From Roseibium sp. TrichSKD4 (lineage in GTDB: Bacteria; Pseudomonadota; Alphaproteobacteria; Rhizobiales; Stappiaceae): 34,887 nucleotides of DNA. The notes below the pieces were generated by a model, which saw only the letters and a program-made list of their open reading frames with translations, had not been told where the DNA came from and did no database searches. The number at the start of each line of letters is the position of its first letter. The stretch's first letter is position 1. Where the stretch lies: contig NZ_GL476319.1 in the NCBI RefSeq assembly GCF_000148725.1, positions 2,009-36,895 on the forward strand, written 5' to 3'. Position numbers and translations under genes: made by a program. Below, one piece after another: positions 8,750 through 32,669 of the stretch.

Positions 8750-9028
8750 ATGGAAGACAAAGAACTATTTAATGCTTGGGTGGCCTCACTTGGCTTCAAC
8801 GAACGGGAGCTCCGATCTGCTGGGGAACTCCTAGGTTTTGACAAAAACCAAATCTACGCTGTAAGAGCTGGAAAGCGTCCACTGAAAAAGGCTGAGAAAC
8901 TCGCCATGGCTGCTGTCAAAGCTGAACTCGCAGAGTGGGCTCCTGAGCACGATAAAAATCTACTCGCATTAGGACTATTGAAGGAGACCCTTTTCGACAA
9001 AGGCAGCGACAAGACCGAAGCAGCCTAG
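8750..9028 (+). CDS. Small helix-turn-helix DNA-binding protein
   Basis: A 92-residue protein whose ATG at 8750 follows CGGAG. Residues about 17-50 (ERELRSAGELLGFDKNQIYAVRAGKRPL) match the pattern of a Cro/XRE-like HTH, where a recognition helix precedes a turn with GKRP. It stands alone between a leftward exported-protein gene and the end of the leftward operon, so it has its own promoter within about 110 AT-rich bases (8638-8749). Its stop shares the palindrome CTAG with the stop of the convergent gene. It may regulate itself or the neighbouring exported protein. Confidence 0.7.
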   Translation: MEDKELFNAWVASLGFNERELRSAGELLGFDKNQIYAVRAGKRPLKKAEKLAMAAVKAELAEWAPEHDKNLLALGLLKETLFDKGSDKTEAA

Positions 9029-9828
9029 CGGTACCACCTGGAAAACAGGCTTTCGAAGCTCAGATAATTGTAATGCACAGCAGCGTGATCCAGAGCACGC
9101 AACGTCTTCTCAAGAACTGTACGGTCAACTGAGGCGCGGACTTTTCTCTGCGCTTTTTCGTCCACTTTGATAACCTGGACCTTATCCGGGCTGCGAAATA
9201 GCCATTTATCCAGCCAGACAACATCATCAAGGATCTTGTATAGATAACTGCTCATCGACGACTGTAAGCGGTCCAGTGACATCATTGCAGTCAGCTTTAC
9301 GTCAGCGATTGGTCGCGGACCGGACCCTGAGTTAGGCACCCCGTCCAATTCAGGCGAACGTAACAGCGTAATCTGGGCCTTCTCCATGTCCTTTCGGAAT
9401 TCAAGCCCTGCATACCAACGAAAATTTGCAATCTCAGCGGCGACCGCTTCCTCTTCGTACCTATTGTCCTCAAACTTACCGGAGAACATCAGCCATTCGA
9501 ACGGAGCTGCATTGTGATCTGAAATAACAACGCTGTCTCGAGAAACTCGCCAGTCAATTGGCCGCCCCTCCCGACCGCCGTGCTTGTTTTCCCGTTCGCT
9601 AAATTGGGACACGAAAGGTTTAGGATATGGATTGATGGACTGACCATATATACGTTCGACCATGTCGTAGAACTTGCGCCGACGTACCTCAAATTCCTCT
9701 GACCGGGCGTAATGAAAAGCGAGCGGCTTCGGGTTCACACGATGCGGCCAACCAAAGCTGTGAGCGCATCGGATAGATTGAAGTGCTTCGGCAGCCTGAA
9801 CTGCTTTCAAAATCTGGTTCACTCTCAC
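9025..9828 (-). CDS. Hypothetical phage protein, last gene of the leftward operon
   Basis: A 267-residue basic protein. The C-terminal half, with an LD..L..M...Y..LDDVVWLDKWL segment near 205-225 and a final VLEKTLRALDHAAVHY segment near 240-257, faintly resembles the DUF6456-type HTH proteins of alphaproteobacteria and their phages, in which a DVC/DV segment precedes a C-terminal helix. That resemblance is weak. Its start overlaps the preceding gene by ATGA, and its stop overlaps the convergent HTH gene by four bases, so the operon ends here with no room for a separate terminator. Confidence 0.65.
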   Translation of the reverse strand: MRVNQILKAVQAAEALQSIRCAHSFGWPHRVNPKPLAFHYARSEEFEVRRRKFYDMVERIYGQSINPYPKPFVSQFSERENKHGGREGRPIDWRVSRDSVVISDHNAAPFEWLMFSGKFEDNRYEEEAVAAEIANFRWYAGLEFRKDMEKAQITLLRSPELDGVPNSGSGPRPIADVKLTAMMSLDRLQSSMSSYLYKILDDVVWLDKWLFRSPDKVQVIKVDEKAQRKVRASVDRTVLEKTLRALDHAAVHYNYLSFESLFSRWYR

Positions 9829-17465: not shown

Positions 17466-18051
17466 GTCGCAATTCGGTAAATCCATACTTGGTGGCTAAG
17501 TTCTTCTGCCGAACATCTTCATCTGACATCAGTGCCCAAATACAATCAGGCTCCCAATGGAGATGTGCATAGACTTGAACAGTCTGGGCGAGAATTTGCC
17601 CAACTCTCTTTTCACGGTATTCGGGAGCCACCCAAAGCTCCGCCAAGTATACCGGCTTTTCAGGTGTCACATTCCAGAACTCAGGCAGCGCTGCAGCTAA
17701 TTGTGCTGCTTCACCATTTTTACCCCTCAATATCTGTGGAAGATAACAAGCTACGTACTGCCGCAGGCTCCAACCTGAGAACTGCCCTCGTTTTCCCGCC
17801 GCCAGACAAACGGGTTTTTGTTTTAATTTTCCATTCGGAGTTGTGTAGCCAACCAAAAAAAATACGTCATTACCCTGGAGAACATTTCTATCTGTACTTG
17901 TAAACGGCGTCAATTTCTTTTGCGTTGAGCGTAACTGCCTCTCCACTTCAAATACATCATCGACATCCCGTAAATGTATCCCCATTTCTTTTAATTCGTT
18001 TATGCTTTGCGAGATGAAGTTACATATATCTATTTTACTTATCTTTAACAT
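17329..18051 (-). CDS. GNAT-family N-acetyltransferase-like protein
   Basis: A 240-residue protein from the ATG at 18051, which has AGGAG eight bases upstream. Motif A is visible near 150-175 (VYLAELWVAPEYREKRVGQILAQTV, a variant of the Q/RxxGxG acetyl-CoA loop), followed by a CIWALMSDEDVRQKNLATKYGF segment typical of GNAT enzymes. The N-terminal 140 residues are not family-typical. The gene follows the small 94-residue frame by four bases and its last 137 bases overlap the PAS-like gene on the other strand. A regulatory or toxin-like acetylation role is possible, but the substrate is unknown. Confidence 0.72.
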   Translation of the reverse strand: MLKISKIDICNFISQSINELKEMGIHLRDVDDVFEVERQLRSTQKKLTPFTSTDRNVLQGNDVFFLVGYTTPNGKLKQKPVCLAAGKRGQFSGWSLRQYVACYLPQILRGKNGEAAQLAAALPEFWNVTPEKPVYLAELWVAPEYREKRVGQILAQTVQVYAHLHWEPDCIWALMSDEDVRQKNLATKYGFTELRPNALRWVVPPVEIPEVVWFVGNDKAGLTDLVERKIRPDQSAQRRR

Positions 18052-26863: not shown

Positions 26864-27268
26864 ATGAAAGATTTCGGGATCGGAGCGATTGTAGCCGCGA
26901 TCAGCATAGCATGTCTCGGACTTGTTGTCGGCGGTGGTTGGTACTCATACAAAACCGTGCAGGTCTGGGGTGCCGAGATGAGCGGCAAGGCTATCCTCGC
27001 AGAGGCAGAATTCAGCAAACAGGCTCGGGTTAAAGAGGCGCAAGCAAAAGCAGATGCGGCCTCGCTTGAGGGGCAGGCCGAACTGACCCGTGCCGAGTTT
27101 GCTGCAAAAGCAAATGCTGCACTGACTGAAGGACTGGGCGGCCCGGAAGCGTACCTTCGCTACCTCTACATTCGAATGCTTGAGGAACAAAGAGCGTCAA
27201 AACAGGTGATTTATCTTCCAACAGAAGCAGGTATGCCAATCCTCGAAGCTGGACGTCTCGGCAAATAA
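26864..27268 (+). CDS. Membrane-anchored band-7/SPFH-like helical protein
   Basis: A 134-residue protein from the ATG at 26864, with AAAGGAT upstream. Residues about 6-29 are one transmembrane helix (GAIVAAISIACLGLVVGGGWYSY). A long Ala/Glu/Lys-rich coiled coil then resembles the C-terminal coiled coil of SPFH proteins (AILAEAEFSKQARVKEAQAKADAASLEGQAELTRAEFAAKA). It ends with a GGPEAYLRYLYIRMLEEQ...VIYLPTEAG block, as in prohibitin-like proteins. No band-7 globular domain is present, so it is a truncated relative. It probably forms membrane assemblies, perhaps with the two genes before it. Confidence 0.7.
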   Translation: MKDFGIGAIVAAISIACLGLVVGGGWYSYKTVQVWGAEMSGKAILAEAEFSKQARVKEAQAKADAASLEGQAELTRAEFAAKANAALTEGLGGPEAYLRYLYIRMLEEQRASKQVIYLPTEAGMPILEAGRLGK

Positions 27269-27300
27269 GCACCCGCCCAAAGGTCAACGAGATGGCTGGA

Positions 27301-27600
27301 TGACGTTAGCAGGTGCCAAGACGGCCAATAAATGTCCAGTGAACCTGCCCTGTCGACTAGAGACTAGTCGGCCCTAACGCCGGGGTTACGAGCGTGACAG
27401 CCCGGAGAGACGGGCAACCTGAGAAATTTGTGGGCTGCTGTGTCGCGGACATTTAGCCCACGCCCAATCCGAAAATAACCGCCTTTGGAATGGTGAGCCA
27501 GGGCGACACAGCCGAAGGATTGGGACCGCTGCGACGGACATTTGGGGGCCTGTGCCGGGCCTCAACTTAGCTCGCAGGTAAAGCCCTCCCAAGGCAGGCA
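27301..27600 (+). ncRNA. Candidate structured non-coding RNA with loop-loop (kissing) pairings
   Basis: No gene fits the 353 bases between 27268 and 27622. Instead there are nested perfect pairings: hairpin C GCAGGT/ACCTGC (27309-27314/27343-27348); hairpin D, 9 bp (27352-27360/27364-27372, with one G-U); hairpin E GCCCG/CGGGC (27400-27404/27411-27415); hairpin P GTGGGCT/AGCCCAC (27430-27436/27455-27461); hairpin B CCCAATCC/GGATTGGG (27463-27470/27517-27524). The 18-base loop of P splits into GCTGTGTCGC, complementary over 10 bp to 27503-27512 in the loop of B, and GGACATTT, complementary over 8 bp to AAATGTCC (27330-27337) in the loop of C. A second GGACATTT at 27536-27543 could compete. I do not recognise a known RNA family. 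Confidence 0.6.
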
Positions 27601-27621
27601 AGAAATTTGAAAGGAACGGCC

Positions 27622-27849
27622 ATGAGCAAATCAAGCGAAGATACCACCCGCAGCTATGCGGCAGGAAAAGCCATCATCGATGGCCGGGATCCGAATGAAG
27701 CTCCAGAGATAATGATGACGCTGGAGCAGACCGTAGCCGCTGTGCTGCTCCTTCTTTACCCCGACCATAGGATGGCGGCGGCAATGCTCAATGAGGGCCT
27801 GCTCGAAGGCGTAGAACGGCGAATTTCAATGCATCAGGCCAAACGTTAA
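27622..27849 (+). CDS. Small hypothetical protein
   Basis: A 75-residue protein whose ATG at 27622 follows AAAGGAACGGCC. It has a polar start and a helical middle (MMTLEQTVAAVLLLLYPDHRMAAAMLNEGLLEGVERRISM), which is hydrophobic but interrupted by YPDH, so it is probably a soluble amphipathic protein. It is the first gene after the structured non-coding stretch, whose RNA could be its leader. No family is recognised. Confidence 0.65.
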   Translation: MSKSSEDTTRSYAAGKAIIDGRDPNEAPEIMMTLEQTVAAVLLLLYPDHRMAAAMLNEGLLEGVERRISMHQAKR

Positions 27850-30922: not shown

Positions 30923-31330
30923 ATGAAGCACACAAACGTATTAGAATTCAAACCAGAGGAGATGATTGAGGAAAGCGATATGCCGAACAGGTATCCGGCA
31001 ATCTTCAAGGACAAAGCGGCAATAGCAAAGGCCAGAACCCAAGGTCTGATCGCTCATTTCTACATTACCCGCGAGAGGATCCTCTACACGCCAAATGATG
31101 TGGCTGAGTACCTCACACGTTACCGCCAACCAGCAACCAGAATCGGAGCAGAACAATGTCCAGAAAACAATCCAAAGGGTCGGCATCAGGAGGAACCGCC
31201 GATTGCAAGCGCCTCTTCGAATACAAGGGATATTGGATTAGACCAAATGAGCGTGGAAGACCCGGGTTCCTCAAGTGCTGGATGCAAGACGGAAACGCGA
31301 AACGCCGCAAGCTTAATGCTGAAACGCTAG
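30923..31330 (+). CDS. Excisionase/HTH-like protein overlapping the integrase gene
   Basis: A 135-residue protein from the ATG at 30923. The first 70 residues include YPAIFKDKAAIAKARTQGLIAHFYITRERILYTPNDVAEYLTRYRQPA, a winged-helix MerR/excisionase-like pattern ending in a DVAEYL helix. The remaining tail is polar. The frame continues 175 bases into the integrase gene in another reading frame. Position just before the integrase fits an excisionase that directs excision. Alternatively, the real gene could stop earlier or the tail may be non-essential. Confidence 0.62.
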   Translation: MKHTNVLEFKPEEMIEESDMPNRYPAIFKDKAAIAKARTQGLIAHFYITRERILYTPNDVAEYLTRYRQPATRIGAEQCPENNPKGRHQEEPPIASASSNTRDIGLDQMSVEDPGSSSAGCKTETRNAASLMLKR

Positions 31331-32511
31331 AGGACGCCTGTGCTGAATTAATCCGTGACGTTGAAGTCACTCCAGCAAAAGCAAACGACCCAATAAACGT
31401 CATGTTTGCGGCTGTTGTTAATGACTACAGACAAAGGGTTCTTATCTCCAAACGCAAGATTCGCCGAGACCAAAGAACAGGGGAGACAGGGGAAAGTATC
31501 AGTTCGACCGAATCTGGCTTGGACAAAACCGTAGAACGGCTTGTCGAATTTATGTCAATGAAGGACGCAGATGGCCTTCCCCGTAGTTCAAACGGCGCAG
31601 CGTTCACATGCGGCGAACTAACGTTGAAGATGCAACACGCATTTTATCAGTACCTAGCTGAAACATACGGGCTTTCTACAAAGAGCATTTCTATCTACAT
31701 GGTGACCATTCAAGCTGCCCTGAACAAGGCTACCATCCCCTATTTGAAGCCCACTGAAAACGGTAAGATAGAGGTACAAATCCTCACTCGTGCGCCGACA
31801 ATCGTTACTGATGACAAGTCAATATCCGAAATCATCGGTAGGGCAAGCACAAAAAACGCTCAAAAGAACCGGCCACTGCTCAAGTTTGAAGAGATGGCGC
31901 GTTTCATCGACTCTATCAAATACGAGCATGCGTTTAGATACGTAGTTATAGCCCTAAACACTTGGGCACGTCCGGAAGCAATCCATGATCTGAACTTTCA
32001 TACTCAAATCGATATGGACTATGGGCTTGTCCAACTGAACCCTGAAGGACGACTACAAACCAAGAAATATCGCCCCACAATTCGTCTGACCAACAACCTT
32101 AGATGCTGGGCAGAATATTGGAACACTGACTACCCAATGCAGTTTCGAGGACAAAAGGTTCTCACCGCGAAGAAGCCCATTAATGCGGCTTTTGCGGCAG
32201 CCGGGTTTCCTGAATTATCACGTAAAGAGATAAGAGCATTTATGTTTACTCAATCCCGGCGGGTTCTTTTGTCCAACGGGCAAAGGTTGTCAAAAACTCA
32301 ACGTTCCGAGTGGATCGGGCATGCATCACAGGAGGGGTCAAGCACCGGAGAATTTTATGAACGTTTCGACCCGGAGTTTCTTGAAGAGGCAATGGAAGCA
32401 ACGGACCTAGTTATCCAGGAAATTCAGAAACATTTGGTGATTCGTTCTTTGATTGCTCCTGTGAGCAAAACGGGAACAAATAACGTCGTAAAAGGTAACT
32501 TTGGAGGCTAG
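31156..32511 (+). CDS. int: Tyrosine recombinase (phage integrase)
   Basis: A 451-residue protein. The N-terminus has an AP2/arm-binding-like segment (EYKGYWIRPNERGRPGFLKCWMQDG), then a core-binding helical region. The catalytic domain shows ALNTWARPEAIHDL with Arg272, RKEIRAFMF with Lys357/Arg360, EWIGHAS with His389 and FYERFDPEFL with Tyr401 as the nucleophile. The usual HxxR box reads KEIR, a known variant. It would catalyse integration at the tRNA-Pro 3' end just downstream. It overlaps the excisionase-like gene by 175 bases. Confidence 0.92.
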   Translation: MSRKQSKGSASGGTADCKRLFEYKGYWIRPNERGRPGFLKCWMQDGNAKRRKLNAETLEDACAELIRDVEVTPAKANDPINVMFAAVVNDYRQRVLISKRKIRRDQRTGETGESISSTESGLDKTVERLVEFMSMKDADGLPRSSNGAAFTCGELTLKMQHAFYQYLAETYGLSTKSISIYMVTIQAALNKATIPYLKPTENGKIEVQILTRAPTIVTDDKSISEIIGRASTKNAQKNRPLLKFEEMARFIDSIKYEHAFRYVVIALNTWARPEAIHDLNFHTQIDMDYGLVQLNPEGRLQTKKYRPTIRLTNNLRCWAEYWNTDYPMQFRGQKVLTAKKPINAAFAAAGFPELSRKEIRAFMFTQSRRVLLSNGQRLSKTQRSEWIGHASQEGSSTGEFYERFDPEFLEEAMEATDLVIQEIQKHLVIRSLIAPVSKTGTNNVVKGNFGG

Positions 32512-32533
32512 TTACTGCCGCATTACTGCCGCA
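32512..32533 (+). repeat. Tandem 11-bp direct repeat next to the integrase gene
   Basis: TTACTGCCGCA occurs twice without a gap (32512-32522 and 32523-32533), immediately after the integrase stop and about 60 bases before the tRNA 3' end. Tandem short repeats in this position are the usual form of arm-type integrase binding sites, so this is a reasonable guess for one. Confidence 0.5.
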
Positions 32534-32592
32534 CTTAAACTGAGAGCCACCTTTTGTTCTGCAGGAATTTCCGCTAAGTTATTGAAATCAAA

Positions 32593-32669
<77 letters not shown>

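Follow-up and report, generated by a model that had tools for sequence, protein, structure and literature searches.

The window analysed here is a stretch of 34,887 nucleotides from Roseibium sp. TrichSKD4 (contig NZ_GL476319.1, positions 2,009 to 36,895). One open reading frame (ORF) ends at position 27268 and another has its ATG at 27622; the neighbouring genes include a stomatin-like gene upstream and a gene for 75 amino acids downstream. The region between the two ORFs, in a prophage, is free of genes, as a sequence-only reading had claimed. Its folding energy is modestly low (z -2.08), 4 of 100 shuffles being equally good. The only tRNA found in the window is a tRNA-Pro on the opposite strand, 5.3 kb from the conserved core described below. 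The end of ORF 31156-32511, which looks integrase-like by eye and has no PHROG match, adjoins this tRNA (window 31156-32669), which is likely to be an attachment site. At the right end of the window lies an LtrA-like gene with relatives of up to 78% identity in mostly marine genomes, many of them from Ruegeria and its kin. The features of the RNA-bearing stretch are collected in the table.

Features of the RNA-bearing stretch, in coordinates of the window
Feature	Position	Strand	Basis or remark
RNA-bearing gene-free stretch, whole	27269..27606	+	approximate limits, from the stop of the upstream ORF to a Shine-Dalgarno-like stretch before ATG 27622
Motif A, conserved H-type pseudoknot, with flank	27292..27354	+	covariance model built without the window, 51 bits, E 1.5e-10
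Stem a, 5' strand UGGC	27293..27296	+	pairs with 27324-27327; overlooked in the sequence-only reading
Loop 1, UGGAUGAC	27297..27304	+	nearly invariant; most letters demanded by the search patterns
Stem c, 5' strand	27309..27317	+	register of the family; hairpin C as first described is 27309-27314
Loop 2, AAGACG	27318..27323	+	demanded by the search patterns
Stem a, 3' strand GCCA	27324..27327	+	pair counts and covariation
Loop 3, UAAAUGUCCA	27329..27338	+	includes the P/C partner 27330-27337; partly demanded by the patterns
Stem c, 3' strand	27340..27348	+	pair counts and covariation
9-bp hairpin with loop AGA	27352..27372	+	predicted fold of the window only; z -1.45
Motif B: GUGACA, hairpin GCCCG-GAGAGA-CGGGC, AAC	27394..27418	+	pattern matches in 66 viral contigs
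Hairpin P with inner stem GUGUC/GACAU	27430..27461	+	exact; folds locally, z -4.08; no homologue found
Hairpin B (CCCAATCC/GGATTGGG)	27463..27524	+	exact; z -2.54; no homologue found
Second GGACATTT	27536..27543	+	present; absent from 32 other motif A loci examined

The conserved core of the stretch, motif A (27293-27348), is, by comparison with its relatives, an H-type pseudoknot of two stems, a and c. Its segments follow each other in the order a, UGGAUGAC, c, AAGACG, a', UAAAUGUCYA, c'. The family is defined by covarying stems a and c together with the loops UGGAUGAC, AAGACG and UAAAUGUC, and this combination is found in the window, where stem a has four of four pairs, stem c is paired at seven of nine positions with the two mismatches near its inner end, and all three loops are present. 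The runner-up match of the motif A model inside the window scores 9.1 bits. The start originally given for the RNA, 27301, drops the first eight bases of the core. ACGAGA stands directly before motif A in the window (27287-27292) and in loci L054, L108, L142 and L151; in L142 and L151 it is itself preceded by a hairpin like AATTCGCCCGNNNGGGC. The 8-mer GAAGGCAG occurs downstream of motif A in 7 of the 63 motif A groups, and its counterpart in the window is AAGGCAGGC at 27591-27599.

The first lead to the relatives came when 385 genomes belonging to the same class as G001, which carries the Roseovarius albus locus L030, were scanned. Weak matches at E up to 0.1 were found in 36 genomes, and most of them are probably due to chance. 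L054, which lies within a tRNA array, matches window positions 27287-27340, and L055, whose genome has two sites of this sort, matches 27392-27419; in both the pairing is kept with other bases. Patterns built from the L054 and L055 pieces matched 34 viral contigs for motif A and 66 for motif B, and a looser motif A pattern, with both stems unconstrained, matched 83. Copies identical in the core and the near flanks were treated as one (18 more loci of the looser pattern are duplicates of this kind); L159, without the AATGTC block, was excluded. The resulting 79 distinct motif A sequences come from 72 IMG/VR contigs, five named phages, L054 and the window, and form 63 groups by their downstream sequence. 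Alignment A1 contains 62 of the groups, one contig having ended too soon. Alignment A2, used for the covariance model and the test of paired changes, contains 51 and excludes the window; it also omits L213 (not in A1), L228 (close to L205) and nine groups with irregular gaps or unusual lengths.

Other routes to relatives were less productive. The whole stretch had no Rfam match and no BLASTN match in phage and plasmid records, and BLASTN did not find the RNA beside relatives of the stomatin-like gene (18 loci) or of the 75-aa gene (5 loci), where the best score of the motif A model was 11.6 bits (E 0.82). The integrase used as bait in genomes brought up no relatives. BLASTN with a single motif A member found none in plasmids and E. 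coli genomes, and the model found none in 321 genomes from the class to which G779 belongs, an absence that carries little weight.

Both stems of motif A covary. All four pairs of stem a are formed in 59 of the 63 groups, by types that include GGTC/GACC, GGAC/GTCC, AGAC/GTCT and ACCC/GGGT. Its second pair is kept in 62 groups (G-C in 23, A-U in 23, U-A in 14, and others; shuffled mean 0.49) and its fourth in 59 (shuffled 0.60). Positions 2-7 of stem c are paired in 54-59 groups, with shuffled means of 0.38-0.75, and registers shifted by one base pair much more poorly. Because the first motif A pattern had fixed the inner bases of stem a, this stem was recounted on the 40 groups found independently by other searches (L173 and above); 37 have all four pairs. 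In the 51 rows of A2, 93.4% of the cells pair, compared with 67.7% after shuffling, and 112 cells are changed on both sides, compared with 35.1. The covariation score of both stems is 0.566, compared with 0.147, and for each of these three measures none of 500 shuffles reaches the observed value. Stem a was counted in this test only in rows ungapped there, and the choice of rows favours clean pairing in A2, while the counts for the separate stems use all 63 groups. The loops are nearly invariant as well, in part by construction, since the search patterns required much of loops 1-3. The stems contain 40 G-U cells and 10 A-C cells, an excess to be expected of an RNA read on this strand, and the lengths of the segments vary by single bases, which argues against coding.

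Further pairings within the core are less certain. A possible third helix, UGGA/UCYA, is compatible with 60 of the 63 groups, and loop 2 can alternatively pair with loop 3 (GACG/UGUC), in each case without covariation. In one subgroup the nested fold that is predicted joins the 5' strand of stem a to a CCGGCC further downstream and also forms GACG/UGUC; neither pairing covaries, but both are alternatives. In the nine sequences around L154 the helices predicted beyond the core have paired changes at 9 of 39 pairs; the nested prediction for this subgroup cannot represent a pseudoknot and gives the 5' strand of stem a another partner.

The sequence-only reading had described a different arrangement, in which the loop of hairpin P kisses both hairpin B and hairpin C. 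All five helices are exact. The loop of P (27437-27454) is fully covered, 27437-27446 by 27503-27512 and 27447-27454 by 27330-27337, and the second copy of GGACATTT is present as described. None of 5000 dinucleotide shuffles contained a perfect 7-bp hairpin with its entire loop taken up by two perfect pairings of at least 8 bases, in a test framed post hoc, after the result was known; a relaxed 6/6 version of the arrangement was seen in 8 of 5000. Complements of 10 bases occur somewhere in 1542 of 5000 such shuffles, so that the 10-bp P/B pairing by itself is unremarkable. Hairpin C is a covarying helix and corresponds to stem c, so this part of the proposal is borne out by the homologues. The pairing of P with C is not. 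Its partner in C, AAAUGUCC, is loop 3 of motif A, and in the 60 motif A groups whose downstream sequence is long enough, a complement of 8 bases to the copy's own loop 3 occurs in the window alone (1 observed, 0.7 expected from mononucleotide shuffles). If this pairing belonged to the design of the family, the complement would be expected in the relatives.

It had also been proposed that the second GGACATTT exchanges partners with the first, giving a switch. The arrangement is exact and, as noted, did not arise in the strict shuffle test. However, the complement for the P/C pairing is absent from the other motif A groups, the pairing would occupy the conserved loop 3, and GGACATTT is found in 0 of 32 other loci. 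Moreover, the lowest-energy fold contains an inner stem within the P loop, GUGUC/GACAU, which had been overlooked and which competes with both kissing pairings. A switch of this kind is therefore very improbable. Comparison of the downstream part with 239 loci gave nothing convincing beyond motif B, the best other match being L062 (E 0.02 over 79 bases). An exact 16-base pattern of hairpin P had six matches, all unrelated, and a group I intron, suggested by GACTAGAGACTAG, was rejected: the sequence is a plain hairpin and matches no Rfam intron model. The original interpretation as an interlocking and possibly new RNA is thus partly supported. The structured element is real, as the covarying stems in the relatives of motif A show, and the interlocking fold backed by the data is the pseudoknot of stems a and c, a different one from P/B/C.

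Motif B has the general form GUGACA, GC-NN-G, loop GAGAGA, the complement of the first strand, and AAC. Its two varying stem pairs are both formed in all 43 independent copies, which none of 2000 shuffles achieves. A looser form, allowing the loop GAAAGA, occurs 3' of motif A and on its strand in 16 of 60 groups including the window, and by chance in none of 1200 mononucleotide shuffles. The motif A model found no motif A on the 65 other viral contigs with strict motif B. Of 31 records with strict motif B, 30 have one copy and one has two. When ARAGORN places a tRNA at most 400 nt after strict motif B, it starts 2 or 3 nt later in six of eight cases (L080, L088, L113, L118, L130 and L135, of which L080 and L135 are mutually similar), a spacing that would suit a role of motif B in marking or making the tRNA 5' end. 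An ORF of at least 50 aa begins within 70 nt downstream of 41 of 69 strict sites, a raw count without a control. A GU-ending helix on the 5' side of motif B is not established (mean length 5.14; shuffled mean 4.82, sd 0.19, maximum 5.35). In Stenotrophomonas phage Pokken a motif B-like hairpin (17953-17974) lies 1.7 kb before motif A, not 3' of it, and precedes the first tRNA of a cluster.

Motif A is almost confined to phages. Exactly one copy is present in 39 of 40 records, one of which is genome G327; as many of the contigs are fragments, this copy number is a lower bound. The exception is Burkholderia phage Mica, which has a variant missed by the pattern. In overlapping draws of bacterial genomes (398 of the phylum, 385 of the class of G001) there were three pattern matches, and only that in G327, the L054 copy in its tRNA array, has the stems. 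The named carriers are Xanthomonas phages RiverRider and PB119, Stenotrophomonas phages Pokken, Paxi and Piffle, and Mica. In the regions read from five of these six, the RNA lies inside a tRNA cluster in four and behind an integrase gene in Mica, and nothing is annotated at the RNA except a short hypothetical ORF in PB119. Twenty neighbouring proteins from 14 loci include integrase, tail protein, terminase, endolysin, a ParB-like protein, RNA ligase, repressor, phosphatase and homing endonuclease. The neighbours are not wholly random, since an integrase gene is the closest ORF on the upstream side at three of the 14 loci scanned, and again in Mica. A tRNA lies within 600 nt of motif A in 17 of the 63 groups, compared with 13% of random positions on the same contigs, and every ARAGORN tRNA within 3 kb is on the motif A strand.

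Several individual loci have unusual tRNAs or other RNA-related features. L154, L165 and L168 have, about 170 nt after motif A, a 119-nt match to the 71-position tRNA model, which suggests an enlarged variable region. By eye an extra stem within the RNA, CATCATC/GATGATG, carries this tRNA, which another hairpin seems to replace in L167 and L153. The motif A contig L163 (1599-2015, 3302-3387) carries a permuted tmRNA and a sub-threshold Proteo-phage-1 RNA. In L182 an RNA ligase gene (228-1295) lies close behind motif A on a contig with several tRNAs, and in L108 an ARAGORN tRNA with anticodon CTA, labelled tRNA-Pyl (8989-9065), lies 0.8 kb from motif A.

None of 4227 Rfam 15 families matches motif A or B at its family threshold in the window and 19 motif A loci, in agreement with the sequence-only reading, which had recognised no family; a scan of 19 motif B loci found tRNAs only. 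The HDV ribozyme is a nested double pseudoknot; the order of segments in motif A is that of a simple H-type pseudoknot. The Rfam HDV-like models have no match in the window or the 19 loci, nor in five loci at E up to 1. The covariance models of GOLLD and ROOL give no match at gathering score in the window and 19 relatives, and none at E up to 1 in five loci. Nevertheless GOLLD and ROOL are the nearest known kind, and the theta ribozymes the nearest element found beside tRNAs. GOLLD is described as an RNA of phages and prophages, often near tRNA islands, sometimes with tRNAs inside, and of unknown function (PMC12286853). Some motif A loci also have a tRNA or tmRNA inside or beside the RNA, but many GOLLD members exceed 800 nt, whereas the stretch in the window has about 340. 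ROOL is phage-borne and often near tRNA islands, with several pseudoknots and no known partner (PMC12286853). The motif A RNA is likewise phage-borne and pseudoknotted; however, it does not match the ROOL model, and ROOL env-120, which forms a cage, is 659 nt long. Like GOLLD and ROOL the motif A RNA is phage-borne; its proximity to tRNAs, by the counts given above, is modest. Theta ribozymes are presented as small HDV-like RNAs beside phage tRNAs (PMC10879173), a class from which motif A differs in having no Rfam HDV-like match. Proteo-phage-1 RNA (RF03044) is another small structured RNA, named for phages of proteobacteria, and its sub-threshold copy in L163 lies about 1.9 kb from motif A, but its sequence and fold are different. 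Nothing recognisable as motif A was found in the published literature, which is weak evidence as most subscription papers lay outside the search; the absence from Rfam 15 is the stronger evidence of novelty.

The stretch appears, from these comparisons, to encode a member of an unclassified, strongly conserved, pseudoknotted RNA that occurs in dozens of otherwise unrelated phages. Its low copy number, its near restriction to phages, its changing neighbours and its conserved core within a changing body point to an RNA acting in trans. We consider it rather probable that motif A belongs to a new family of phage noncoding RNA of this kind, similar in character to GOLLD and ROOL but separate from them; that any particular target could be named correctly is improbable at best. 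Such an RNA would be transcribed, and would either be released by cleavage of a longer phage transcript or have a terminator of its own. In favour of a separate RNA, an intrinsic-type terminator lies downstream of 12 of 47 motif A copies, compared with 6 upstream and 4 antisense; against it, these 12 are the only copies with a terminator nearby. The copy in the window, which has no promoter-like or terminator-like site on the + strand within the stretch, may simply be read through with its operon. The invariant loops of the pseudoknot would form the binding site for a single conserved partner (a host protein or RNA), and the rest, which changes rapidly, would serve as a scaffold. During infection the free RNA, like GOLLD and ROOL, might act in host takeover, in counter-defence or as part of an RNA assembly.

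The main rival to a trans-acting RNA is that motif A might be a self-cleaving ribozyme, or a processing element that resists or is cut by an RNase, setting the 5' end of the RNA that follows or the 3' end of the preceding gene or tRNA, with motif B as a companion element for what comes after it. The compactness of the pseudoknot, its nearly invariant loops and its free flanks would suit this role, as would its position: in the 22 unobstructed of 37 loci the median distance from the previous ORF is 66.5 nt, and the UGGAU block follows a tRNA by 7, 5 and 13 nt in L146, L226 and L236. The tRNA starts 2 or 3 nt downstream of strict motif B fit as well, and the HDV-like theta ribozymes are proposed to act in this way beside phage tRNAs (PMC10879173). 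However, motif A is not overlapped by any Rfam ribozyme in the loci scanned, it offers no cleavage site that could be named, and even phages with arrays of many tRNAs have a single copy, so that we regard such a role as unlikely. Less likely still is a cis-regulatory element of its own operon, either riboswitch-like or an antitermination site. The copy in the window does have co-directional genes on both sides and neither a terminator nor a promoter of its own, and an ORF often follows strict motif B closely, by the uncontrolled count given above. But the neighbouring genes share no single function, there is one copy per genome, and in the same 22 loci the median distance to the next ORF of at least 90 aa is 361 nt.

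A more specific form of the trans-acting reading can be put forward tentatively, at somewhat less than even confidence. Motif A may be the invariant active or binding site of an unnamed class of phage RNAs, horizontally spread among dissimilar phages and with a fast-evolving body. These RNAs may be catalytic themselves, or may act on a single conserved machine of the host, such as a nuclease, the ribosome or RNA polymerase, by disarming or redirecting it. A compact pseudoknot in which over 20 bases hardly vary and the stems covary strongly, usually single in each genome of dozens of dissimilar phages and absent from Rfam 15, marks a missing class of phage RNA. It would stand as a separate family beside GOLLD, ROOL and other phage RNAs whose purpose is still sought. 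As the conserved core is only about 55 nt long, its structure, its possible self-cleavage and its host partner are directly testable.
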